Under the pieces are notes generated by a model, which made no database searches, was not told the origin of the DNA, and worked only from the letters and a program-made list of their open reading frames with translations. Positions 1-37,155 of a stretch of 64,000 nt of DNA are shown in pieces (the stretch's first letter is position 1; each line of letters starts with the position of its first letter). The stretch lies in contig NZ_LUKE01000001.1 in the NCBI RefSeq assembly GCF_001592735.1, positions 1,997,184 through 2,061,183 on the forward strand. Reading direction: 5' to 3'. Source of the DNA: Bdellovibrio bacteriovorus. Lineage in GTDB: Bacteria; Bdellovibrionota; Bdellovibrionia; Bdellovibrionales; Bdellovibrionaceae. A program made the position numbers and the translations under genes.

Positions 1-315
1 GCGGCCGGAGGCCACTTCTTTGGTAAAGGCATCATGGTCACTCACGTAAGACATGATGATAATCGAAATGTCATTGTTGTTACGCTCTTTTAAAACCTTG
101 GTGACGACGTCAAAGCCCGAGCCTTTAGGTAAATACTCATCCACCAAAATGGCTTTGGGATGGACGTTATCCAGCTTGTATTTTGTCTCGAACCATTCGG
201 CACTGTGAAAGATTGAACAGTTAGGGAAATTGCGATTTAAAATGTCGGTGCACTTCTGCACGCGCACTTTATCGCCACTGACGATCAAGAACGTGTTCTT
301 TTTTTCCTGTCCCAT
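1..315 (-). CDS. Response-regulator receiver domain protein (C-terminus cut by window edge)
   Basis: The first 105 codons of a minus-strand gene; the rest lies beyond position 1. It reads as a CheY-like receiver domain: a beta-strand (NTFLIVSGD) with Asp15, a phospho-acceptor Asp59 in ILVDEYLPKGSGFDV, and the conserved switch Ser89 at the end of the strand SIIIMS. The first acidic pair is reduced to one Asp, as in some atypical receivers. The ATG at 315 is preceded by GGAAGG at good spacing. No output domain is visible, so whether it is a stand-alone receiver or a longer regulator cannot be told. Confidence 0.75.
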   Translation of the reverse strand, partial: MGQEKKNTFLIVSGDKVRVQKCTDILNRNFPNCSIFHSAEWFETKYKLDNVHPKAILVDEYLPKGSGFDVVTKVLKERNNNDISIIIMSYVSDHDAFTKEVASGR

Positions 316-330
316 CTTAAACCTTCCATA

Positions 331-361
331 ATTAAACCCGTCTCACTTAAGGACGAGTCAA
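331..361 (-). promoter_or_regulatory. Possible sigma-70 promoter of the receiver gene
   Basis: Read on the minus strand there is TTGACT (356-361) and TTTAAT (331-336) separated by 19 bp, just upstream of the receiver gene at 315. The spacing is longer than the ideal 17 bp, so this is a weak call. The rest of 316-465 shows no other gene. Confidence 0.3.
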
Positions 362-465
362 TGGTGACACCTTTTACATTTTCGCTTACTTAGGAACACC
401 TCACAAGGGTAAGGGGTCAGATCGAAACTGAATGTCGTGATTTGAGATTTTAAACTAGGACCTAG

Positions 466-1533
466 CTAATCAAGCCAAGAAGAAATCACATCAAGGGGTG
501 GTAAACTGACAGAGTCAAAACGATAGGAATAAGCAAGACTCAGTTCAGCCAAGGTGCCACCGATTTCCCCATCGCCGACGTTAGAGCCTACGCGCTCAGC
601 TAAAACCTGAAGTCCCACGACATGTTTCTGGCCATTGTAACCGGCACCCATTCGAAGGGTCGAATAAGTGCCCAGATCTTTTTTATTTTCCTGACCGCCA
701 TCCGTACTTTTAAACTGGGCATCTTGATAACCTAAACCTAGCGCCAAGAGTCCCGTGGCATAATATTTTTCTTTGAAAATCAAGATCGCACCAAAGCCCG
801 CTCCACCGGCAAGCGTGAATCTATTGATATCAGTGATATCGGCAAGCGAGCCAAAAGTAGGCGCGGCACTCGCCGGGATGAGGGATTGATTGCCATTCGT
901 GATTTTTGATTGGCTGGCGTGACCGAAGACACTCCAGCCCAAAGCATTTTTACGTTGATGTCCCGCCTGATCAAAGGCCACGGCAAAAGAGAACTCTTCG
1001 TCGTCTAAATTCCAGAAAAAATTCATCCCATAATTTTGAGTTTTTAGGTGGGGATACAGAATTTTTTTATCAGTATTTACATAGGCTGGATCAAGCTCGG
1101 CCGAGTTATCTAAATAGTAGCCATGATAGGACTGGTAAAAGAACTCATAGGTTCTTTTACCATAAAGTCTGAATTGAAAGTCGGTTCCATCACTGCTGCC
1201 TTTGGTGGATTCATCTTCGTGGCTTTGCGCTTGGGTCGTGGAAGCGGTGGCAGAAAGATTGCGATAGCCTAAATTCAAAAATACTTTTGAATTTGCATTG
1301 GGTTCAAATTTCGCTTTGGTTTTGTTTGGGCTATCGAATTCGACACTGTATCTGGGGACTGAAAATCCCGTTTTGACTTTTAATTGATCAGATTTTTGCG
1401 GCTCCCAAAATGGAGTTTCTTGAGATTGGTATTCTTCGGCTAAGATTTCTTGAGTGCTTTTAGTTTCTTCCGCAAAAGTCGTGGCTGAAACAGCTAAAAG
1501 AATCAGGAAAAGAAATCTTTTTAATAAGGACAT
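466..1533 (-). CDS. Secreted, probably outer-membrane beta-barrel protein of unknown function
   Basis: A 355-residue protein with a clear Sec signal peptide (MSLLKRFLFLILLAVSATTFA, cleavage after about residue 21). The mature part is rich in alternating polar/aromatic stretches such as FQFRLYGKRTYEFFYQSY and ends in a strand-like segment (AELSLAYSYRF), which fits an outer-membrane beta-barrel. I do not recognise a named family. Its ATG overlaps the stop codon of the upstream methyltransferase gene (TAATG), so it is the last gene of the gcvP operon and is probably translationally coupled. Confidence 0.65.
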   Translation of the reverse strand: MSLLKRFLFLILLAVSATTFAEETKSTQEILAEEYQSQETPFWEPQKSDQLKVKTGFSVPRYSVEFDSPNKTKAKFEPNANSKVFLNLGYRNLSATASTTQAQSHEDESTKGSSDGTDFQFRLYGKRTYEFFYQSYHGYYLDNSAELDPAYVNTDKKILYPHLKTQNYGMNFFWNLDDEEFSFAVAFDQAGHQRKNALGWSVFGHASQSKITNGNQSLIPASAAPTFGSLADITDINRFTLAGGAGFGAILIFKEKYYATGLLALGLGYQDAQFKSTDGGQENKKDLGTYSTLRMGAGYNGQKHVVGLQVLAERVGSNVGDGEIGGTLAELSLAYSYRFDSVSLPPLDVISSWLD

Positions 1534-2552
1534 TACTTTAATACCTTGATTTCTTGATTCACGCGAAGTTCGTTTGAAACCTTTGGTAAATCCGCGGGCA
1601 GATCAATCAAAACTCCGCGCGGAATTTCTTGGCGTAAGCCTGTTTTATGCAGCCACGCTAGGAATTCCCTTTCGGGACTGCGGCAGACCATCTGGCGGTC
1701 TTTGCCTTTTTCCTCTAAGCGATCACCGACCACGCGAGCCGCCAGGATTTTTGGGGCCGGTGTTTTTCGCATCAATACATAGCTCATAGTCAGCGTGCGA
1801 TTTTTCATCGGCAGTTGCTCTTCCATTTTCAAAAACCAAGAAGGGGCGGCAAAGTGAACGCGATCATGACACCAATCGTGTTTTGATTGGGAATAAAGTG
1901 GGCAAGCTAATTGATGAGTGCAGGGCGCCCAGGCTTGATAGCCCTTATCAATGAGTTTTTGTCTTAAATCTAACAACTTCCGCCCATCTTGCTGGGTGGA
2001 AGGTTCCACCAACATCAAGGCCTCGCAATTGTAAGCCCAATCAGGGATGTCGGAAAGTTCGGTCAAAGAGTAACTGAATAATGCCAAAGTTTTCTTGGGA
2101 TCTTTGAGGTTTTGTTTGCCCCAGGTTTTTTGCCACTCTTCAGCCTTAAACTGTGTGAAATATTTTTCGATCAGTTTTTGCGGTTCTTGGGAACGTTCGA
2201 CCAAGTGAAACTTGAAATGATGCTTTTCTGAAAGCGTCAGGGATGCGGTGGCGAGTCCTGCGCCAAAATCAATCACATGTTCGATACCTTCAAAAAATCC
2301 ACGAGCATCGGCTTCATGCACCAACCGATTTAAGCGCGTGGCATTTAAAGGAAGGAAATAGGCCAGGTAAGCGATCTGCGCCCAAGATTCATGCCACGGC
2401 GTTTGTCCGTCGGGCTTTTGGATAAAGTAATCTGAAAGAGCCAAGACACATTTCGCCAAGGCTTTAGAGTCTTCCAATGTCAGATCAAAGCTTTTTAAAG
2501 CTTCGCGAATTGAGGATTCAAAAGACGGGGGAAAGCTCCAAGATGTGTGCAT
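1533..2552 (-). CDS. Rsm22-family SAM-dependent methyltransferase-like protein
   Basis: 339 residues. A methyltransferase motif I (VIDFGAGLATASLTL, about residues 95-110) is followed by the Rsm22 signature: a cysteine/histidine cluster APCTHQLACPL...DWCHDRVHF (about 210-235) and a later Cys in RQMVCRSPE. In Rsm22-family proteins, which are associated with the small ribosomal subunit, such cysteines bind an Fe-S cluster. The gene starts 4 nt after the glycosyltransferase stop and overlaps the next gene's start by one base, so it lies inside an operon. The substrate in bacteria is not known to me. Confidence 0.8.
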   Translation of the reverse strand: MHTSWSFPPSFESSIREALKSFDLTLEDSKALAKCVLALSDYFIQKPDGQTPWHESWAQIAYLAYFLPLNATRLNRLVHEADARGFFEGIEHVIDFGAGLATASLTLSEKHHFKFHLVERSQEPQKLIEKYFTQFKAEEWQKTWGKQNLKDPKKTLALFSYSLTELSDIPDWAYNCEALMLVEPSTQQDGRKLLDLRQKLIDKGYQAWAPCTHQLACPLYSQSKHDWCHDRVHFAAPSWFLKMEEQLPMKNRTLTMSYVLMRKTPAPKILAARVVGDRLEEKGKDRQMVCRSPEREFLAWLHKTGLRQEIPRGVLIDLPADLPKVSNELRVNQEIKVLK

Positions 2553-2556
2553 GCTT

Positions 2557-3540
2557 TTATAGTGCTCTTAAAGCTTTCAGCAAGTCACTGACTTTGATTT
2601 CAGACATGACTTCCGGCCCGACGTCATCGGGGTCATGCCCTTCGGGCATAAAGATTTGGACTTTATCTCCTCGGGCCGCCCAACGACGCGGATGCTGGAC
2701 GCGCACCGGAGAATAAATTCCTAATACCGGCGTACCTAAAGAGGCGGCGATATGCGCAACCCCCGTGGAAGGAACCACGAGGGCTTTTGCGTGCTTTAAG
2801 ATCAACATGAGCTCTTTGGTGTTAAGCTTATTCTGTAAAATCAAAACACGCGTGTTGTGTTTAAATTTTTCTTTGATTTCTTTAAGCCAAGGTTCATCTG
2901 CCGGCGTGCCAGTGACAACCACTTGGGTCTTTTCAGCCACTTCGGCGATCAATTGCAGGTAATTGGGAATCGGCCAGTTTAAAGCCGACCCCGCCATTCC
3001 AGGATGAACCACGATATATTCTTGCGGCGACAATTGATGCTTTTCTAAAAGTCCTGGGGAGCTAGGTGCGATCAATTTTAAAATTGGCGTCGCTTCGGTT
3101 ACCGGGGTTGCATCAAAAGCATGACCTAAAAGATCTTTATTGTAATCGGCTTCATGCTTATTCGCGATGCTGCGACGTTGGCGTAAGCCTTTATTCAAAA
3201 ACAAAAAGCTGTGCCATTGGGATTTTACACCCGCACGAACCGCTACGCCTTCGGCCCACAGAGCATAATTCACCCACCACGGAGCTTGAAAGCTGACCGC
3301 GATGTCGGGCTTAAATTCCCGAATGAATTGTCTTAAAGCTTTTAAGGACGTCTTCCAATCTTCTTTAGAAATTTCGATGAAAGAGCGTCTAGGATCGGCA
3401 TTTTCAGGGATAAAAGAAAGTCCTTTAGCGATCACCCATTGAACTTCACAATCGGCTAGAAAGCGGACCTGATCGACACACAAAGTGCAGATCAGGTCTC
3501 CGATTTTATCTAGGCGAATCAGCAGAACTTTTTTTGCCAC
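2557..3540 (-). CDS. Glycosyltransferase family 9 (heptosyltransferase-like)
   Basis: 327 residues with the GT9 N-terminus KKVLLIRLDKIGDLICT and the C-terminal donor-binding region VVPSTGVAHIAASLGTPVLG followed by YSP. The middle part VVHPGMAGSALNWP matches the start of the second Rossmann domain. GT9 enzymes usually add ADP-heptose to the inner core of lipopolysaccharide on the cytoplasmic face. The start codon is GTG and overlaps the gcvP stop in the sequence TAGTG, so translation is probably coupled to gcvP. Which core position it serves cannot be read from sequence. Confidence 0.85.
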   Translation of the reverse strand: MAKKVLLIRLDKIGDLICTLCVDQVRFLADCEVQWVIAKGLSFIPENADPRRSFIEISKEDWKTSLKALRQFIREFKPDIAVSFQAPWWVNYALWAEGVAVRAGVKSQWHSFLFLNKGLRQRRSIANKHEADYNKDLLGHAFDATPVTEATPILKLIAPSSPGLLEKHQLSPQEYIVVHPGMAGSALNWPIPNYLQLIAEVAEKTQVVVTGTPADEPWLKEIKEKFKHNTRVLILQNKLNTKELMLILKHAKALVVPSTGVAHIAASLGTPVLGIYSPVRVQHPRRWAARGDKVQIFMPEGHDPDDVGPEVMSEIKVSDLLKALRAL

Positions 3541-6413
3541 TATTGATATTCTTCAATCGATGGGCAAGAGCAAACAAGGTTACGGTCACCGTACGCATTG
3601 TCGACCCGGCCTACAGAAATCCAGAATTTATTTCCGCGCAGCCATTCTAGGGGATAAACCGCTTCTTCACGTGAATACGGATGATTCCACTCTGGTTTCA
3701 TTAACATCTGTGCGGTGTGCGGAGCATTTTTCAATGCGTTGTTTTCTTTATCCATTTTGCCGGACTCTACCGCGGCGATCTCTTTACGAATCGCCACCAT
3801 TGAATCGATGAAACGATCTAATTCTTTTTTAGATTCAGATTCAGTCGGTTCGATCATCAATGTACCCGCAACCGGGAAGCTCATGGTTGGTGCGTGGAAT
3901 CCGAAATCCATCAAACGTTTCGCGATATCTGTCACATCAATCCCCGAAGTCTTCTTCACTTCGCGAGTATCAACGATACATTCATGCGCCACCAGACCGT
4001 TTTTACCTTTGTAAAGAATCGGGTAGTGCGGTTCTAATTTTTTAGCGATGTAGTTGGCGTTCAGCATGCTCACCAAAGTTGCTTTACGTAAGCCTGCCGC
4101 CCCCATCATCGTGATGTAGGCCCAAGAAATTGGTAAAATACTAGCGCTGCCCCAAGGAGCCGACGTTGTCGCTGTGATACCCTCTTTGGGTCCCGCTTCA
4201 GGAACCAAAGAATGCGTTGGCAAGAACGGCGCTAAATGCGCCCCCACGCCAATCGGTCCCACACCTGGTCCGCCCCCACCGTGAGGGATTGAGAAGGTCT
4301 TATGCAAGTTCAGGTGAGAAACGTCAGGACCAAATGTTCCGGGACGGCACATACCCACAAGGGCATTCATGTTCGCGCCATCCATGTAAACTTGTCCGCC
4401 GTTATCATGAACGATTTTGCAGATATCAACGATACCTTCTTCAAACACACCGTGAGTTGAAGGGTAAGTGATCATCAACGCCGCCAAATTATCGCGATGC
4501 TGTTCCGCTTTCACTTTTAAGTCGGCAACGTCCACGTTCCCTTGATCATCACACGCGACAACCACGACCTGCATGCCGACAAGGGCGGCTGAGGCTGGAT
4601 TTGTTCCGTGTGCTGATGAAGGAATCAAGCAGATATTTCTGTGACCTTGGCCACGAGATTTGTGATATTTGCGGATCACTAGCAATCCTGCATATTCCCC
4701 TTGGGAACCCGCATTGGGTTGTAAGCTTACGGCCGCAAAGCCAGTGATATCGGCTAATTTCTTTTCAAGATCGTGAATCATTTCAATCAAGCCCGAAGCT
4801 TGTTTTACCGGAGCAAACGGGTGAAGTTTGCCGATCTCAGGCCATGACACGGGCACAAGCTCTGTCGTCGCATTTAGTTTCATCGTGCAAGATCCCAGTG
4901 GAATCATTGAATGCGTCAACGTCAGATCTTTATTTTGCAAGTGATGGATATAGCGAAGCATTTCAGTTTCGCTGCGATGAGAGTTAAACACTTGATGAGT
5001 CATGTAAGTCGACGTGCGTTCCAACGCCGTTGGGACTTTCACGTCTGCCATGGCGTCATCAATGGACTGAGCCGTAAAGGCCGCAGGCTTACCACCGTTA
5101 AAGGCGGCCCAAATTTGTTCAATGTCTTCTAAAGATGTTGTTTCATTCAATGAAATGCCCAAAGTCGAATCATCCACTTTGCGGAAATTGATTCCTAAGT
5201 TTTCAGCTTGGGTCATAATGGCCGTAAGCTTGTCGGTTTTCACGGTCACCGTATCAAAGAAAGAAGCTTTCACTGTAGGCGTGCCAAGTTTTGCCAAACC
5301 TTCAGCTAAGATTCCGGTCAAGCGTTGTACGCGCAAAGCAATTTTTTTTAGGCCTTGAGGTCCATGATAAACCGCATACATCGAAGCCATATTTGCTAGC
5401 AATACTTGCGCGGTACAAATATTGGAAGTCGCTTTTTCACGACGGATGTGTTGTTCGCGCGTTTGCAAAGCCAAGCGCAATGCCGACTTCCCTTGAGAAT
5501 CCACACTCACACCCACTAAGCGGCCTGGCATCAAACGCTTGTAAGCATCTTTCGTTGCCAAGTACCCCGCGTGAGGACCACCAAAACCCAATGGAACGCC
5601 GAAACGTTGGGAGTTACCCACAACCATATCCGCACCCCATTCACCTGGAGGAGTTAAAAGAGTCATCGCCAACAAGTCTGTTGAAGCGGTGACTAAGGCG
5701 CCATGCTCTTTATATTTTTTCGCAATCGCTGAATAATCCTCAACCGCACCGCGAGTGTCTGGGTATTGGAAGAACACGCCGAATACGGGTTTAGAGAAAT
5801 CGTATTTCGCCGGATCCATGATGATCATTTCAAAACCCAAAGGCTCAGCCCGTGTGCCCATAACCTCAATCACGTGAGGATGCATGTTCGGCGAAACCAC
5901 AAAAGCGTTTGCTTTATTTTTGCAAAGGGAATGTGCCATGAACATGGCTTCTGCTGCAGCGGTGCCTTCATCAAGCAATGAAGCATTGGCGATCTCCATG
6001 CCGTTCAAATCAGAGATCATTGTCTGGAAATTCAAAAGCGCTTCCAAACGACCTTGAGAAATCTCTGGCTGATAAGGAGTGTAAGCCGTGTACCACACTG
6101 GATTTTCAAAGATATTTCGTTGAATTACCGTCGGCGTGATTGTGTCGTGGTAACCCATGCCGATGTATGATTTGAAAACTTTATTTTTCGAAACCATGCT
6201 TTTCAGTTTGTTCAAAAGATCGTATTCAGAAATCCCTGAACCCACATCTTCAAAAGCGTGTTGGGTGCGGATTTGGGCCGGAATAACTTTATCGGCCATT
6301 TGATCGAGTGAATTAAAACCTAAAGTTTTCAACATCTCGTGGATGTCGCTGTCAGTAGGTCCAATATGACGGGGGATGAATTCGTTCTTAGCAGAAAGAT
6401 CAGCAATTTTCAT
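3540..6413 (-). CDS. gcvP: Glycine dehydrogenase (decarboxylating), P-protein of the glycine cleavage system
   Basis: 957 residues, the usual length of the single-chain P-protein. It starts with the family N-terminus [17 protein letters not shown], contains [13 protein letters not shown] in the second half, and carries the pyridoxal-phosphate lysine in [18 protein letters not shown] at about residue 705. It decarboxylates glycine and passes the aminomethyl group to lipoyl-GcvH. The partners gcvT and gcvH are not in this window. Instead gcvP heads an operon with a GT9 glycosyltransferase, an Rsm22-like protein and an outer-membrane protein. No glycine-riboswitch-like structure is evident in the roughly 100 bp upstream. 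Confidence 0.97.
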
Positions 6414-19708: not shown

Positions 19709-20678
19709 TAAACCTTCTCGCGACTTCATGGAAAAAATCGGGGCCATGAAATACAAGCGCACTATAAATTTGAACAAGATCTGCGCCCATTTGCAATCTT
19801 TCAAAGACATCTTCTGCGGATAAGACGCCTCCAGCGCTGACTAATAGTAATCCCTCTCGTTTTTTGCCTAAACTTTCAACAGCAATTTGCAAAGCGCGCT
19901 TTGAAAGGTCTTTCAAAGGTGCTCCGGAAAGACCACCTTCTGCAGGAAAATGACAGCCAGCGGGACGGGATAAAGTCGTGTTTGTTAACACAAATCCGTC
20001 AATGCCCAACTGTTGGCAGTGCTGCACAGTTTCGGAAAGAAGCTCTTCCCCCATATCCGGAGAAAGTTTTACGAGAACGGGTGTGGGTTCGAAGTGAGAG
20101 ACTTTTTCTAAGATCGGACCCAGCAGATGGCTTAGATTTTCTTTGCTTTGTAAATCACGCAGACCTTTGGTGTTCGGACTCGAGATGTTAACCACAAATG
20201 CGTCGGCAAAAGGTCTGAATTTATCTATCAGGGTGACATAATCATTCACTGCCTCTTCATTGGGCGTGTGACGATTTTTCCCGATGTTTACAAAAATCGG
20301 GGTGCGATAGTTGGGTGCATAGCCCGCAAGATTAAAAAAAGTTTCGTCAGCCCCCGCGCTGGGAAATCCCATCTTATTCCACATCGCTTGCAGATGCAGA
20401 TCGCGATCCATAATTTTTCCCGGATTGGGATCTTGGGGGCGAGGAGTGACGGTGCCGACTTCAACAAAGCCGCAACCAAGTTTCCACCAATCATTCAGAT
20501 GATCGGCATTTTTATCGACGCCCCCGGCAATTCCCAAGGGGTTTGCAAAGTGCAGGTCACGCCAAGTGAAACTTTTCCAGTGCGGAGTTTTTTGTCCGTA
20601 AATTGCGGAGTAGAGAGGAAGAGCCAGTGAGCTCAAATCATGAGCCCACTGGGGTGGCAATAAAAGCCAAGGACGCAT
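19695..20678 (-). CDS. pyrD: Dihydroorotate dehydrogenase (quinone), class 2
   Basis: 327 residues, near the usual 335. FMN barrel motifs are clear: NPLGIAGGVDKNADHLND, CGFVEVGTVTPRPQDPNPG, the catalytic-loop Ser in VVNISSPNTKGLR, PVLVKLSPD, and the phosphate-binding LVSAGGVLSAEDVFERLQMGA. The N-terminal helices (LLLPPQWAHDLSSLALPLYS) are the class 2 membrane and quinone-binding part. It makes orotate in pyrimidine synthesis. The gene lies 7 nt after gdhA. Confidence 0.95.
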   Translation of the reverse strand: MRPWLLLPPQWAHDLSSLALPLYSAIYGQKTPHWKSFTWRDLHFANPLGIAGGVDKNADHLNDWWKLGCGFVEVGTVTPRPQDPNPGKIMDRDLHLQAMWNKMGFPSAGADETFFNLAGYAPNYRTPIFVNIGKNRHTPNEEAVNDYVTLIDKFRPFADAFVVNISSPNTKGLRDLQSKENLSHLLGPILEKVSHFEPTPVLVKLSPDMGEELLSETVQHCQQLGIDGFVLTNTTLSRPAGCHFPAEGGLSGAPLKDLSKRALQIAVESLGKKREGLLLVSAGGVLSAEDVFERLQMGADLVQIYSALVFHGPDFFHEVARRFNDGR

Positions 20679-30688: not shown

Positions 30689-32260
30689 TTATCTAAGGCT
30701 GATGCGAACGTCGTGGTCTTTGTCTTTAAGCTTATTGAGCTCGGTGAACAAAACCGTCATGCGATCATAAGTATCAATGGAAGAGTCCTGCCATGGATTT
30801 TGAAGGCGAGCGCCATCCGGGTTAAGTTCAGAGACGACTTGTCCATTGCGCGTGCGCAGAAAGATTTTATTTTTGGTGTCGATTTCAATGTCCGCGTTTA
30901 ACAGTGCGGTTAATTTTTTGGTACGTAAGTAGGTCGCCGCCGAACGAATGAAATGGCGTTCAAACTTATCGGCAAGGTCTTCAGGAGTTAATTCAACATC
31001 TTCTTGGCCTTGCTCATCCATCGAGACATTGGTGTCATTGGAGCATTCCTCCAAATTCTCTTCGGCCTCTTCTGCCAATTGACGATACCAATTTAAACCC
31101 ACCGCCAAAATCGAACGAACCGAGGTGAAAGTTTCCGGTTCAAAGCCATGCCGTTCGCAGAACAGTTGAAAGCCGGCCTTTAACAATTCAGCATCAAGAG
31201 GTTCATAGAACATATGTTCATCAAAGCTGGGCGAGCGTAAGGAAAGGCTTAAACGTAAGATAGAATCTAGTGCCATGGCGTTGGAAAAAGGACCGATGAC
31301 ATGCTCTTCATCTGCTTGATTGCGCATGGACGTGAAATCGCGATTAAAAAAAGCCAATTCACGACGGCCGACTTTCAAGCTGATATTGTAAGGTGGGTTC
31401 CACTTTTTTATTTCATCAGTTTCTAACAAAGCAGACTCTAAGGGACTGCCCACCACGGTCACGCGCAGATCCCATACTTGGGTGAGCATTTCTAATTTTT
31501 TGGAATCCCGATTTTTCTGCCCGCGGAAATAACTGTTCACACGATCATGCAAGGAAGTCGCTTTACCGACGTAAAGGATTTCACCCCAACGGGAGAGCAT
31601 GCGATACACGCCGGGCTGCTTTGGCAGGCCGAGACGTTTTTCTTTGGGCAATGGGTATTCGTATTTTCCACGAGCCGTTTTCGGAGTTTCCGCCAGCCAT
31701 TCATGAATAGCTTCAAAAGTCGAAAGGCCTTTTTCTTCTAACGCGGCCATAAGACCCTGCCAGATCACCTGCGTGGCTTGCACGTGGCCTTCAGCGCGCT
31801 TTAATTCGCCAGAAGGGCAACCAAAGTAACCGGCTAAGCCCTTAATGCCGCGAGTGGGAAGGTTCGGGAAAAGACGTTTGGCAATTTCATGGGTGCATAA
31901 AATCTGAAATGGCATTTCTTCGCCCAGCTTTTCGAAGGCATCCATCAAAAACGGGCGTTCAAATTGGGCGAAGTGAATGATCGCCAAAGGTTTTTCTTCG
32001 TTCAAAGATTTTAGTGATTCTTTAAAGTCTGATAAGACTTCTGGTAAAGTTTTTGATGCCAGCATGACTTCGTCTTTAATTCCCGTAATAAGTTGAATTC
32101 TTTTGGGAATTAATTCGTCATTTGGCAATTTCACCGTACGCGAATGCACGGCTTCACCATGCATAAAGGACCAAGCCATTTCTAAAATATGAGCGGTGTC
32201 GGGTTTAGCGCCCGTGGTTTGTAAATCTAAGAAAATAACATTCTTAAGTTTAAGCGCCAT
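30689..32260 (-). CDS. DnaQ-like (degenerate) exonuclease domain fused to GIY-YIG nuclease
   Basis: 523 residues. Residues 1-175 have the RNase T/DnaQ fold, but key acids are replaced: motif I reads FLDLQTTG (Gln for Glu), motif II HFAQFERPF (Glu for Asp), motif III GHVQATQV (Gln for the final Asp). A UvrC-type GIY-YIG nuclease follows at about 210-290 (GVYRMLSRWGEILYVGKATS, LHDRVNSYF, LLETDEIKKWNPPYN), with Tyr, Arg and Glu intact. The last 230 residues are unassigned. The architecture resembles Cho/DnaQ-UvrC fusions. It overlaps the helicase gene by 11 nt. Confidence 0.8.
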   Translation of the reverse strand: MALKLKNVIFLDLQTTGAKPDTAHILEMAWSFMHGEAVHSRTVKLPNDELIPKRIQLITGIKDEVMLASKTLPEVLSDFKESLKSLNEEKPLAIIHFAQFERPFLMDAFEKLGEEMPFQILCTHEIAKRLFPNLPTRGIKGLAGYFGCPSGELKRAEGHVQATQVIWQGLMAALEEKGLSTFEAIHEWLAETPKTARGKYEYPLPKEKRLGLPKQPGVYRMLSRWGEILYVGKATSLHDRVNSYFRGQKNRDSKKLEMLTQVWDLRVTVVGSPLESALLETDEIKKWNPPYNISLKVGRRELAFFNRDFTSMRNQADEEHVIGPFSNAMALDSILRLSLSLRSPSFDEHMFYEPLDAELLKAGFQLFCERHGFEPETFTSVRSILAVGLNWYRQLAEEAEENLEECSNDTNVSMDEQGQEDVELTPEDLADKFERHFIRSAATYLRTKKLTALLNADIEIDTKNKIFLRTRNGQVVSELNPDGARLQNPWQDSSIDTYDRMTVLFTELNKLKDKDHDVRISLR

Positions 32261-34616
32261 GGGCCTCCCAAAACAGTTTTACGTCTTGGAGGATTTGTCG
32301 TGATACTAATTCTTGCGGGGAAGTTTCAAACCAGCCTTCGGGCATAGTCTCAAAATAGCTATTTTGTAAGAAGCGAGAATCCAGCATCACAATCACGCCG
32401 CGATCACTTTCAGAACGAATCACGCGGCCCGCAGATTGAATGGCTTTCGCCATCGCCGGATAAACGTAGGCATAATTAAAAGCATGATCTTTGCCGTAAC
32501 GCCTTTCATAGTACGAACGTATCTGTTCACGTTCAAAATCAAAGCTCGGCAATGCGGGCCCCACAATAAAGGCGCCAATCAACATGTCACCTGGAAAGTC
32601 GACGCCTTCGGAAAAAACGCCGCCTTGAACACCGAATAAAATCGTCGGCTCTTTAGCCGCTTTTAACTCTTCAAGATATTCTTGGATCTGCGATTGCTTC
32701 ATCTCGCGCTCTTGCACTAAAAGCTTAAACTGCGGCAGGACCAGTTTATCTTGAGCCATGCGCATGAACTCAAAGCTTGGAAAAAGCGCAATATAGTTTC
32801 CGGGCTTCACCGAAGAAATACGCTGAATAGTTTCTGCAATTTTCCCGGCACTTTGATGTCGGTCCGAAAACTTCGTGGAAATTTGTGGAATTATTAATAG
32901 TTTCCGATTTTCTTTTTCAAATGGCGATTGGAATTCCACTTGTTTGGCGTCTTCGTCAAAACCCAAAAGCTCTTGGTAGTAACGAAAAGGTTTTAATGTC
33001 GCCGAAAAAGCCACCACATTCTTAAATTCGTCATAAGCGAGCTTCAAATGTTCAGAGGCATCACAGCAGGTGATCTTGATCATCTCGTGATGATTTTGGC
33101 GCTGATACGTTTGAAAAAACTCTTCCCCAGCAAACTGAATGGACGCTGTAAAGTCCGTCCACAAGTTCATCAGTCGCAAGATCGGATCTTGGGATAAGAT
33201 TTCCACATCTGAATCTAAATAATCCGTGGTCAAATCGCGGATGTCTTTTTCTAAATCTAAAATAGGTTCAAACTCGACTTTGATAATTTTTGAAACACCA
33301 TCTGTACCGTAAGATTGAATCAAACGCCGGGCCCGAGCCGTTAAGCTGTGCGCTTGTAACGCATACTGGGCGGGCAATTTAACAAAATCTTTTTCCAAGA
33401 TATTAAACTGCAAGGTGGAAAGAGTCGGGGAAAAGTAGTCTTGAGAACGTGAAGGCAGGTTGTGGGCTTCATCAATCACCAGATTTGCTTTTTGATCCGG
33501 TTCGAGCAAAGGCAAAGCCAAGCGGCCTACCAAGCTGCGCGGGGCAAAGACGTAATTGTAATCACCAATCACGACATCGGCTTGTTCGATGGCCTCAACC
33601 GATAGCTCAAACGGACAGACTTCAAACTCTTCGCCCATTTTTTTTAGCTTCTCGGAATTCAAACTGCGGAGGCGGGACATCTTATTTACCAAATCATGCG
33701 TCGCCACTTTGGCGTAATAGTCTTTAGCAAATTCACAATATTTCGGATTGCACAAAGGTTCGTTCTTAAGGCACATCTTGCTTTTGGCCGTGATAGTCAG
33801 TGAACGGACTTTGCAGCCTTGCTCTTGAATTTTCTCGACCGCTTCTTCGGCCACTTGGTGCTGGGAATTTTTCGGCGTCACGTAAACAACCTTTTGCCCT
33901 CGCGACAATGATTCTTTAAGTGAGGGATAAAGGATGCCCGCAGTTTTTCCTAAACCCGTCGGCGCTTGCACCAACAATGCCTCGCCACCTGAAAAAGAAT
34001 CCGTGATTGTTTGCACTAATTCTTTTTGACCACGACGAGGGGATGAAAATGGAAAAGTCATTTCTTCAGCCATGGCCACGCGTTTTTTAAATAGCTTTTC
34101 TTTCACTTTAGTTTCTTCAAGCAACTCTTTTAAACGCAATCCCAACCAGAACTCATAGGACTCAATATCCAGATCAATTGACAAAGTGTGGGATTTAAAA
34201 TTTCGCGATGAGACCAAATGCAGATTTAACTTGGGGACCACGCCGGTTTCTTTATAATGAATGTATCCATAGGTGCGCAGTTGCCAAACGTAAGGGTGAT
34301 CGGGCTCAAAGCGCATTTTTCTTTGCAGCTCTTCGACGTCAAAAGCTGATTTGATTTCTTCAATCATGGCGGGTTCAGCGACAAAGCCATCCGCGCGACC
34401 AGAAACGACAAACTCATAGGGACCAGACAAAAAACTATAAGATAATTTTTTTTCTGCTTCATATTTTGGATTTTCGCGCAGGCGCTGACGTTGCACAGAC
34501 TGATGAATTTCTTGCCCACTGGTCGGCGCATTGCCATAGCCAGAGTGGGTTTCGATACTTCCCACTCGTGGACAAGGCAGCGCGAATTGTTTAACGTTCA
34601 GGGCAATTTTTCTCAT
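32250..34616 (-). CDS. PD-(D/E)XK nuclease fused to XPD/DinG-type helicase
   Basis: 788 residues. The N-terminal 150 carry a RecB/Cas4-like nuclease: EIHQSV, SGRADGF, MIEEIKSA (the ExK) and YVWQLRTYGYI (Q-x3-Y). The superfamily 2 helicase follows with Walker A QAPTGLGKTAG, DEAH box LVIDEAHNLPS, and a C-terminal motif VI region IQSAGRVIRSESDRG. Four cysteines between motifs Ia and II (KMCLKNEPLCNPKYC plus EVCPF) match the XPD/DinG Fe-S cluster. It probably unwinds 5'-3' and cuts DNA in repair. It starts 1 nt after the radical SAM gene. Confidence 0.85.
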   Translation of the reverse strand: MRKIALNVKQFALPCPRVGSIETHSGYGNAPTSGQEIHQSVQRQRLRENPKYEAEKKLSYSFLSGPYEFVVSGRADGFVAEPAMIEEIKSAFDVEELQRKMRFEPDHPYVWQLRTYGYIHYKETGVVPKLNLHLVSSRNFKSHTLSIDLDIESYEFWLGLRLKELLEETKVKEKLFKKRVAMAEEMTFPFSSPRRGQKELVQTITDSFSGGEALLVQAPTGLGKTAGILYPSLKESLSRGQKVVYVTPKNSQHQVAEEAVEKIQEQGCKVRSLTITAKSKMCLKNEPLCNPKYCEFAKDYYAKVATHDLVNKMSRLRSLNSEKLKKMGEEFEVCPFELSVEAIEQADVVIGDYNYVFAPRSLVGRLALPLLEPDQKANLVIDEAHNLPSRSQDYFSPTLSTLQFNILEKDFVKLPAQYALQAHSLTARARRLIQSYGTDGVSKIIKVEFEPILDLEKDIRDLTTDYLDSDVEILSQDPILRLMNLWTDFTASIQFAGEEFFQTYQRQNHHEMIKITCCDASEHLKLAYDEFKNVVAFSATLKPFRYYQELLGFDEDAKQVEFQSPFEKENRKLLIIPQISTKFSDRHQSAGKIAETIQRISSVKPGNYIALFPSFEFMRMAQDKLVLPQFKLLVQEREMKQSQIQEYLEELKAAKEPTILFGVQGGVFSEGVDFPGDMLIGAFIVGPALPSFDFEREQIRSYYERRYGKDHAFNYAYVYPAMAKAIQSAGRVIRSESDRGVIVMLDSRFLQNSYFETMPEGWFETSPQELVSRQILQDVKLFWEAHGA

Positions 34617-34617
34617 T

Positions 34618-35721
34618 TTACTCTATGTTAAAACTAAGTTGGCCATGGCTTCGACTCGGGTCCAAGTGGGCTGGGGGTCTTTTAAAATGCGCCACGGACA
34701 GATTCAAGTCTTTCATGTTCAAACCATATTTGCGAGTGTAAAGCTTAAACATCTGCGCCATGGCGTCGGCTCTAGGGCCTTCTCCGCGCATCCTAGAGCC
34801 AAAATTAGGATCATTCAGCTTTCCACCGCGGATATCACGCACATAGTTAAGAACTTTATCTTTTTTTAATGGGTCGTGAACTTCCAGCCATTCCGTAAAA
34901 ATCGGTAAAACCGTTGAAGGAAGGCGCAATGGAGTAAAACCTGCCGACGTCGCCCCCGCATCTGCTGCGGCTTTTAAAATTTGCGGCATTTCATGATCAT
35001 TTAAACCGGGAATACAAGGAGCGACATTTACGCCGACAGGCACACCGGCTTTGGCTAAAGTTTCAATGGCTTTAAGGCGTGCTTCGGGATGCGACGTGCG
35101 AGGTTCTAAGCGGCGTGCCAGGTCTGGATCTAAAGATGTAATAGAAAGATAAACTTTGGCGCCACTCCACGCCGCCATTTCTTGCAAAATATCAACATCA
35201 CGAGTGACCAGGGCATTTTTGGTGATCATGCCCACGGGGTTTTTAAATTCAGCCAGCACTTTCAAGCACCCGCGGGTCAGTTGCATTTTTCGCTCTAAGG
35301 GTTGATAGCAGTCCGTGATCCCACTCATAAAAATCACTTCTGGCTGCCAAGATTTTTTCATCAAAGCTTCGCGCAACAACTGGGGTGCTTCTTCTTTCAC
35401 AAAAATCTTAGATTCAAAATCAAGCCCTGGCGACATGCCCAGGTATTCGTGGGTAGGGCGCGCATAACAATACGAACACCCATGCTCGCAGCCGCGATAA
35501 GCATTGATGGAATAGCTAAATCCAATGTCCGGACTTTTATTGCTCGTGATAATAGTGCGTGAGGAGTCCTTGAAAACTTGCGTTCTCAACACCGATTTTT
35601 CATCTTCTAAATAATTATCGAAATCTTCCTCAGTAGCCTCGTAAGCCAGGGAATCATAGCGGTTGCTGACGTTGCTACTGGCACCACGACCACGAATGTC
35701 CTTGCGAAACTCTCGTGTCAT
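34618..35721 (-). CDS. PA0069/Rv2578c-family radical SAM protein
   Basis: 367 residues. The radical SAM CX3CX2C motif appears as YRGCEHGCSYCYARPTHEY, with the family-specific N-terminus (TSNKSPDIGFSYSINA) and VGMITKNALVTRDVDIL. Members are distantly related to spore photoproduct lyase, and their reaction is unknown to me. It is the first gene of an operon with the nuclease-helicase fusion and the GIY-YIG protein (spacing 1 nt and an 11-nt overlap), which suggests a nucleic-acid repair role. Confidence 0.85.
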   Translation of the reverse strand: MTREFRKDIRGRGASSNVSNRYDSLAYEATEEDFDNYLEDEKSVLRTQVFKDSSRTIITSNKSPDIGFSYSINAYRGCEHGCSYCYARPTHEYLGMSPGLDFESKIFVKEEAPQLLREALMKKSWQPEVIFMSGITDCYQPLERKMQLTRGCLKVLAEFKNPVGMITKNALVTRDVDILQEMAAWSGAKVYLSITSLDPDLARRLEPRTSHPEARLKAIETLAKAGVPVGVNVAPCIPGLNDHEMPQILKAAADAGATSAGFTPLRLPSTVLPIFTEWLEVHDPLKKDKVLNYVRDIRGGKLNDPNFGSRMRGEGPRADAMAQMFKLYTRKYGLNMKDLNLSVAHFKRPPAHLDPSRSHGQLSFNIE

Positions 35722-35789: not shown

Positions 35790-36941
35790 CTATTTAGCGG
35801 TCTCGCGATGAAAAATAAATCGGTATGAGTTGATCATCACAAACGACAGAACCACGAAACCCAATCCCGAAAGAATGGCATTCTGAATTCCAATTAAATC
35901 CGTTACTTTTCCGATCGCTAAATGCATGACGATCAACATCAACGAATCCGTCGCCATCATGTAAGACACAACAGTGTCGAGATCTTGAGGGAACTCTGAC
36001 GAAATCCAAGAAATGGACAGCGGATAAAAGGGGGCGATCGTAAATCCACCGAAGGCTAAAAACAGAGGGTGAATGTAAACACCCAATAAAATAGCAGCAC
36101 CAGTTGAAACAATCGAAGTCGTAAGTAAAAACCGTGCGGATTGTCTGAAATGCACAAGAGTGAAAAGACCGCGACCCAGCATCATAAAGATAAAAAAATA
36201 AGAAACATACAGGCTTGAAGTTTCCATGTCATAGTTCCACACCCGTTGCATGTACAAGGCCAATCGTGAAGACAACATCAGCTCCGTCGCCACGGCAAAG
36301 CTTAACATCAAAGCCAAAAAAATCTGCGGCTTAAAGTTTTTGGCTTTGTGAGCTTTATGTTCTTCGGGCGTAAAGGTCGAGCGAGTGTGCAAGTTTTTAT
36401 GACTGCCGTGAAAGCTGTAAGCTAAAAGTGAAATCGGCGCCAGCATCGCCACCGCAAAAGTCCATCGCCAGTTGCCTGCAACGAGCTCAACCCCGGCCGC
36501 CAAAAGAGGGGCCATCAAACTGGCAACCCCATACATCGTGTGCAGGCCCGAAAGCATTTGCTGCTTGCGGTGCGCGCTGGAACCTAAAGACACCAAGACA
36601 TTGGGAATCAACCCGATGACCCCTTGGCTGAGGCCGAATGTAAACGCAAAGATCAAAAAGACCCAAAAATAAGGCGCAATAGCTAAGCCCAAAAGTGAAA
36701 AGATCAATCCGATAGCGCCCCCGCGCAAAACAGTCAGGCGGTCATAGCGACGCAAAAGGTGGCGACATGCATAACTTGAGATCAACCCGGAAATATTTCC
36801 CAGGGCGAAAATGAGTGACCCCATAGAGTCGCTCACCGCAAAGTGTTTCATAATCTCAGGGAAAAGGGGCCCTCGGATGTTGTCGCTTAAGCCGTAAACC
36901 AGAAGACTTGCGTAGGAAATGATAATAAAGGGCCAAACCAT
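35790..36941 (-). CDS. Major facilitator superfamily transporter
   Basis: About 383 residues, with roughly 12 hydrophobic segments. The N-terminal half contains GLSDNIRGPLFPEIMKHF and the loop 2-3 region LLRRYDRLTVLRGG; the second half has FLAFGGFTIAPFYPLSISWI. This resembles the FucP/NNP or sugar-transport-like branch, but the substrate is not clear. An ATG at 36941 or GTG at 36947 may be the start; neither has a strong ribosome-binding site. Monocistronic as far as can be seen. Confidence 0.8.
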   Translation of the reverse strand: MVWPFIIISYASLLVYGLSDNIRGPLFPEIMKHFAVSDSMGSLIFALGNISGLISSYACRHLLRRYDRLTVLRGGAIGLIFSLLGLAIAPYFWVFLIFAFTFGLSQGVIGLIPNVLVSLGSSAHRKQQMLSGLHTMYGVASLMAPLLAAGVELVAGNWRWTFAVAMLAPISLLAYSFHGSHKNLHTRSTFTPEEHKAHKAKNFKPQIFLALMLSFAVATELMLSSRLALYMQRVWNYDMETSSLYVSYFFIFMMLGRGLFTLVHFRQSARFLLTTSIVSTGAAILLGVYIHPLFLAFGGFTIAPFYPLSISWISSEFPQDLDTVVSYMMATDSLMLIVMHLAIGKVTDLIGIQNAILSGLGFVVLSFVMINSYRFIFHRETAK

Positions 36942-37155
36942 GGACACACTTTAGCGGGCGGGCGTGGGGATGACAAGGACGGCCCCCAAAAAGGTCTGGA
37001 ATACGAGCCCATGTATTTTTTCATTCCGTTGAAATCGCTAGGCAATATGGGGTCCCTATGCTAGAAACCACCCCACATAAACATCCTTAACTAACAAGAT
37101 CACCAAGATCTTTGCTGTAACAAGCACGGCTGTGAAAAGCCAAGGAGCCCCGAAG

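Follow-up and report, generated by a model that had tools for sequence, protein, structure and literature searches.

A helicase-nuclease and a pseudo-DEDDh/GIY-YIG protein of Bdellovibrio bacteriovorus form a conserved gene pair with a probable role in the excision of DNA lesions

We analyzed a stretch of 64,000 nucleotides (nt) of Bdellovibrio bacteriovorus DNA (contig NZ_LUKE01000001.1 of assembly GCF_001592735.1, positions 1,997,184 to 2,061,183; hereafter the window), within which three adjacent genes encode a radical S-adenosylmethionine (SAM) protein, a helicase with its own nuclease domain and a GIY-YIG nuclease. The conserved unit at this locus is made of two genes, helicase and nuclease, and not of three; the radical SAM gene is a dispensable and incidental neighbor. 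We think it probable that the two proteins jointly excise lesions at which the strands cannot be separated, DNA crosslinks and bulky adducts being the likeliest. In our best reading the pair is additional to UvrABC and is neither a defense system nor specific to predation.

All three open reading frames (ORFs) are complete and lie on the minus strand, with products of 367 amino acids (aa) for the radical SAM protein, 788 aa for the helicase and 523 aa for the nuclease. Base 34617 is the sole spacer between the radical SAM gene (34618..35721) and the helicase gene (32250..34616), the upstream member of the pair, which overlaps the nuclease gene (30689..32260), the second member, by 11 nt. The original prediction, made from the letters of the window, had described this spacing correctly, as the ORF coordinates confirm. 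It had also named a PA0069-family radical SAM protein, a nuclease fused to an XPD/DinG helicase with an iron-sulfur (Fe-S) cluster, and a GIY-YIG nuclease. Each of these identities agreed with the domain matches given below, and an N-terminal DEDDh-type domain in the third protein had been missed.

The same prediction had joined all three genes in one unit and proposed to judge this by their co-occurrence in other genomes. In our neighborhood survey the adjacency of helicase and nuclease was recurrent, and the radical SAM gene was seldom linked to them, which upholds a two-gene association and speaks against one of three genes. Of 144 genomes surveyed in the phylum, 34 carried the helicase and 17 gave a strong nuclease match (E < 1e-60); every one of the 17 also carried the helicase, and the two genes were adjacent in 16, the exception being genome G102. 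Three more nuclease matches in the phylum were weak (E about 1e-21 to 1e-24) and correspond to distant homologues that retain DEDDh residues. Within the window's own genus the pair was present in 13 of 14 genomes. A wider set consisted of the best 80 of 159 confirmed loci, chosen by two helicase peptide patterns in species genomes. The nuclease adjoined the helicase in 22 of these 80 wide loci, whose hosts belong to Bdellovibrionota, Melainabacteria/Obscuribacterales and Legionellaceae, together with two unassigned genomes; the nuclease gene came first in L062, L129, L046 and L047, and the helicase gene came first in the other pair loci. Of the 58 wide loci lacking an adjacent nuclease, 32 were searched genome-wide, and a full-length nuclease was absent in 30 and encoded elsewhere in 2 (G149, G173). 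Among 45 genomes of Legionella, 10 had the helicase and 9 the nuclease, all nine nucleases lying beside a helicase, with flanking genes that varied between genomes. Pairwise distances of helicases and nucleases were correlated (r = 0.86, 23 pairs), and none of 2000 permutations gave a value as high; the helicase tree was built with FastTree, and the nuclease tree was made by a quick method and has a long branch for L062. The adjacency of helicase and nuclease exceeds chance, and the pair spreads horizontally. Three Legionella genomes (G206, G209, G212) contained extra and truncated helicase copies, as well as one helicase with an internal stop, which suggests gain and decay on mobile elements. 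In three pair loci (L112, L121, L130) a conserved small protein of 133-154 aa is encoded just upstream of the helicase.

The helicase aligned end to end with PDB entry 9kqh_A (E 1.6e-92, a sequence match) and matched the Pfam families DEAD_2, Helicase_C_2 and HBB, the XPD helical/beta-bridge domain. Its N-terminal PD-(D/E)XK nuclease domain (residues about 1-180; 34077..34616, minus strand) was delimited from alignment rows and the EndoDinG residue pattern: H38 was kept in 80 of 81 helicase rows, with one gap, and E55, D76, E87 and K89 in 81 of 81. The remainder is an XPD/DinG-type helicase of superfamily 2 (residues about 190-783; 32268..34049, minus strand), in which the four Fe-S cysteines (C282, C289, C294, C334) and the Walker A and DEAH motifs were kept in at least 80 of 81 rows. 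Cheng's 2025 review defined EndoDinG proteins by an N-terminal PD-(D/E)XK domain, took the B. bacteriovorus HD100 protein as an example and mentions unpublished data on its endonuclease activity (PMC11981726, in the portion available). All EndoDinG residues stated in that portion are present in the window helicase, which on this residue pattern is an EndoDinG-type PD-(D/E)XK and Fe-S XPD/DinG protein. It missed the NCBIfam equivalog cut-offs for classical DinG (162.5 vs 598 bits) and YoaA (150.5 vs 680) as well as that for cas_csf4 (26.6 vs 400 bits), and was matched by the PADLOC typeIV_DinG model with 402.6 bits. Distant EndoDinG-like helicases (about 30% identity) were also seen in Bacillota, at L165 and in Listeria and Acetoanaerobium records of a plasmid collection; in the one Bacillota record that was opened, the helicase had no adjacent nuclease partner.

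The partner nuclease, as delimited by domain matches, alignment and structural models, has three parts. A degenerate DEDDh (DnaQ-like) domain occupies residues about 7-176 (31733..32242, minus strand, from alignment rows), and the RNase_T family matched residues about 9-147 with 31.8 bits against a cut-off of 24. An active DEDDh exonuclease has four acidic residues and a histidine 4-5 residues before the last aspartate (PMC11194089, in the part available to us). The third protein has kept D12 alone. These residues were compared in 38 pair-type rows, a number that counts some genomes twice (L038/L056 and L047/L062 look identical), the independent number being lower. Motif I reads DxQ in place of DxE, with Q14 in 38 of 38 rows; motif II ends in E101, where aspartate is expected, again in 38 of 38; and in motif III position 154 is never histidine, while position 159, where aspartate is expected, holds H in 32 rows, Q in 5 and N in 1. 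In the same phylum, three distant homologues whose loci of 12-13 kb contain no such helicase had DxE, D and HxxxxD intact. The DEDDh domain of the partner thus looks catalytically dead; since the replacement residues are themselves conserved, it appears to be kept for a use other than ordinary DEDDh catalysis, the simplest guess being that it binds DNA. The UvrC-type GIY-YIG domain (residues about 207-297; 31370..31642, minus strand), with a Pfam match at residues 216-292 (27.6 bits vs 22.6), looks intact: Y219, Y230, K233, R240, E280 and N292 were invariant in 38 of 38 rows, and Y, Y, K, R, E and N are what we take to be the catalytic set of UvrC-type GIY-YIG domains. This domain matched UvrC structure 1yd6 with 62.1 bits, and Foldseek matched it to 1yd6 too. 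The full-length NCBIfam cut-offs for UvrC (82.4 vs 285.45) and Cho (31.7 vs 367) were missed, and the top NCBIfam match was NF005906, the PRK07883-type family, at 157.8 bits and below its cut-off of 495. Last comes a C-terminal domain of about 208 aa (residues about 316-523; 30692..31315, minus strand), modeled confidently (m1880ce029f2c, predicted local distance difference test score (pLDDT) 83.5), for which no PDB match was obtained at E <= 0.001, leaving the fold unrecognized. A DRM.VL-type motif is conserved near its end. The AlphaFold2 model of the nuclease (m46f96c0f2667) had a mean pLDDT of 86.

A second partner emerged from the wide loci. In 26 of these 80 loci the helicase gene is immediately preceded by a relative of TIGR04122, the exonuclease of the ligase-associated DNA damage response, which we take to be of the SNM1-like metallo-beta-lactamase type; the GIY-YIG nuclease stands alongside in none of the 26. 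When the 34 helicase-bearing genomes of the phylum were split by hand from coordinates, 16 had the adjacent nuclease, 11 an adjacent TIGR04122 relative and 7 neither. Placing the nuclease as a label on the helicase tree needed 4 changes, which implies gain or loss of partners on several occasions. A third conserved neighbor was sought in the 80 wide loci and none occurred in more than 3, apart from these two nucleases. In the window's genome a TIGR04122 gene does occur, apart from the pair, in a full ligase-associated cluster with a 'cisplatin damage response' ligase, a DEXH helicase and the PdeM endonuclease; this cluster has reportedly been the subject of papers by Ejaz and Shuman from 2018 and 2019, which PMC8301817 cites. 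A further observation concerns the genus: of its 13 genomes with the pair, the seven whose operon includes the radical SAM gene (G000, G061, G086, G092, G104, G112, G142) are the same seven that have a TIGR04122 relative, and the six without it there (G048, G065, G069, G073, G118, G130) showed no such relative at the search cut-off, in raw counts that ignore kinship.

Repair genes surround the pair in some hosts. Full-length pairs were found in three plasmid records, all of them Legionella plasmids and two of them typed as conjugative. Around the plasmid pair, umuD and a UmuC-like polymerase were found in 3 of 3, Ku in 2 and UdgX in 1; dinB was annotated in two plasmids and present as fragments in the third, and an SRAP peptidase was annotated in two and detected as tblastn pieces in the third. 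At locus L102, from a member of the Desulfuromonadaceae, lexA, a Y-family polymerase gene (dinB) and the helicase gene lie in one run (1-4543), pointing to SOS control there.

The radical SAM protein matched NF033668, the PA0069 family, with 483.7 bits against a cut-off of 360 and carries the CX3CX2C motif as CEHGCSYC; it missed the Pfam cut-off for spore photoproduct lyase (SPL; 18.8 bits vs 27). In the 13 pair-bearing genomes of the genus its gene stood beside the pair in 7 and elsewhere in 2 (G048, where it adjoins aconitase, and G069), and had no match in 4, the pair being kept in all of these (G065, G073, G118, G130). Outside the genus, 12 genomes of the phylum carried the radical SAM gene, next to the helicase in none, although the helicase was present in 4 of them. 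Among the 80 wide loci it was adjacent in one, a Bdellovibrio (L057), and at L060 it lay about 0.8 kb away on the opposite strand. Upstream of it in the window, on the same strand, is a major facilitator superfamily (MFS) transporter gene (35790..36947, minus strand), identified as an ORF and of interest as context only. In loci L052 and L053 the order RlmN-MFS-helicase-nuclease is kept with the radical SAM gene missing, and the MFS gene touches the helicase gene directly with an overlap of 4 bases; the outer neighbor is presumably RlmN. A literature search on PA0069-family radical SAM proteins returned none, and results for Rv2578c were unrelated by title.

Excision of crosslinks or bulky adducts seems the most economical reading of the damage-response partner and the SOS neighbors, and the repair role put forward in the original prediction holds as the likely role of the pair. 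We infer the type of lesion, the order of the steps and a physical interaction of the two proteins as follows. The helicase, of the 5'-3' XPD/DinG type, would load on single-stranded DNA near the blocked site, and its Fe-S/arch channel would stall at the lesion, as XPD suggests. The partner may then dock through its inactive DEDDh domain, holding a DNA strand or end undigested, and its GIY-YIG domain, judging from its intact residues, would nick beside the lesion as UvrC and Cho do. The nicked stretch would be unwound by the helicase and cut or trimmed by its PD-(D/E)XK domain. DNA synthesis would then close the gap, carried out in some hosts by translesion polymerases from neighboring genes. 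The ligase-associated, SNM1-like exonuclease would stand in for the GIY-YIG partner in other lineages. Eukaryotes unhook crosslinks with a set comprising an XPD/FANCJ-type helicase, the PD-(D/E)XK nuclease FAN1, the GIY-YIG nuclease SLX1, SNM1A and translesion polymerases. More tentatively, with the balance of likelihood somewhat against it, we suggest a functional counterpart in bacteria: a mobile form of excision repair that stands apart from UvrABC. Its XPD-type helicase, equipped with a PD-(D/E)XK domain, would work with interchangeable nucleases, either SNM1-like or of the GIY-YIG kind, the latter steered by a pseudo-exonuclease that has become a reader of DNA ends, and conjugative plasmids would carry the set together with SOS polymerases.

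Both the helicase subgroup and the DEDDh-GIY-YIG architecture had been described before, each on its own. With EndoDinG as described in PMC11981726 the window helicase shares the N-terminal PD-(D/E)XK domain and the Fe-S XPD/DinG helicase, the type protein coming from B. bacteriovorus HD100; a term search of the main text of that review returned neither GIY-YIG, UvrC nor radical SAM. To that picture we add the GIY-YIG partner, the alternative partner and the spread on plasmids. In SaDinG, an ExoDinG protein of Staphylococcus aureus, a 5'-3' DinG helicase is fused to a DEDDh exonuclease, deletion sensitizes S. aureus to mitomycin C and formaldehyde, a crosslink-specific phenotype, and both activities are needed (PMC12345164, as far as its available text goes). 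The DEDDh domain described there is active and fused to the helicase, whereas in the window pair it is dead and lies in the partner, and the helicase bears PD-(D/E)XK instead. MrfAB of B. subtilis, likewise a two-gene pair of a helicase and a DEDDh-fold protein, removes mitomycin adducts apart from UvrABC; MrfB, however, has an active DEDDh domain and tetratricopeptide repeats, and GIY-YIG is not mentioned in the available part of the paper (PMC11194089). MrfA is also a 3'-5' helicase (PMC12345164, same portion). The window pair can be read as a rearrangement of the parts found in SaDinG and MrfAB, similar in principle. We take MrfA to belong to a different helicase family from the window helicase. 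Proteins of the PRK07883 type (NF005906), DEDD exonuclease-GIY-YIG proteins, have the same order of DEDDh and then UvrC-N, but the third protein falls below their cut-off and has a dead DEDDh domain, its own C-terminal domain and a helicase partner. The ligase-associated cluster (TIGR04120-04123) contributes the exonuclease family that serves as the helicase's alternative partner, although its own helicase, TIGR04121, is of another family and the full cluster sits separately in the window's genome. In the open-licence literature we found no paper joining an EndoDinG helicase with a DEDDh-GIY-YIG protein and none linking the pair to plasmids or SOS; for Bdellovibrio DinG, the review PMC11981726 alone was found.

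Other explanations share part of this evidence. A general role in repair or recombination, in which the pair would process replication forks, flaps or D-loops like Dna2 or RecBCD/AddAB and have no special use at crosslinks, seems unlikely to us. A PD-(D/E)XK domain with a helicase does resemble the logic of Dna2 and AddAB (parallels are drawn in the available portion of PMC11981726), and Ku lies nearby on two of the three plasmids, but crosslink-specific ties speak for the narrower use: the TIGR04122 partner, the sister gene that accompanies the 'cisplatin damage response' ligase, and the phenotype of SaDinG. It is improbable that the pair defends against phages or plasmids, with the helicase-nuclease degrading invading DNA nicked by the GIY-YIG protein. 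Defense had been part of the original prediction, and the patchy spread in Legionella and the PADLOC match would suit it; yet the pair is present in nearly the whole genus, the recurring identified neighbors are SOS, translesion and damage-response genes, and no relative was found in viral contigs. Between window positions 20000 and 50000 there were no direct repeats of at least 20 bases at spacings of up to 200, of the kind that an array of clustered regularly interspaced short palindromic repeats (CRISPR) would show, and with the csf4 cut-off missed as well we rejected both defense and a type IV CRISPR CasDinG. A need specific to predation, also proposed before, was dropped for the distribution of the pair, which takes in Legionella and Melainabacteria-type genomes.

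A reading of the nuclease as a Cho-like helper of UvrAB, with the helicase no more than a companion in its operon, we regard as very improbable. The UvrC-type GIY-YIG domain with all six residues and the UvrABC genes of the window's genome would allow it, but both the UvrC and the Cho cut-offs were missed, the nuclease travels with the helicase, and no separate UvrC was among the matches listed for the loci searched for repair genes. A first step by the radical SAM enzyme, which would recognize or reverse the damage before helicase and nuclease take over, we hold to be extremely improbable. Its adjacency in the same run in seven genomes of the genus and at L057, and its weak similarity to spore photoproduct lyase, stand in favor; against them are the single adjacent locus in 80, the unlinked genes in G048 and G069, and the pairs that do without it, and the empty site in L052 and L053 completed our rejection of a three-gene system. 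The excision of crosslinks and bulky adducts has points of its own to answer. Neither a phenotype nor biochemistry of this pair was found in our search, and 32 of the 80 helicase loci had neither partner nearby, an upper bound given that some wide loci end close to the gene (e.g. L066, L074, L111), so the helicase can probably work alone. Only 3 of the 10 Legionellaceae loci had repair genes (L138, L139 and L141, the last being the L. lytica plasmid again and so counted among both plasmids and Legionellaceae loci), and 7 of 10 lacked those queried; on plasmids, moreover, repair genes may cluster without a shared pathway. The sequence TTACN3GTAA, which we take to be the LexA motif of Bdellovibrio, had 0 matches in the window against 0.60 expected by chance and is hence uninformative, and damage induction at the window locus is unproven. 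Since the window's genome already encodes UvrA (at 2 loci), UvrB and UvrC, the pair must add something to them.

If the excision reading is right, EndoDinG helicases, whose function is left open in the one review found, would gain a partner and a pathway, and a repair module apart from UvrABC would be moving between bacteria together with SOS polymerases. The radical SAM gene needs no explanation by the pair, which removes a misleading lead. The partner, with its consistent loss of DEDDh residues, would be a clear example of a nuclease that has probably become a binding platform.

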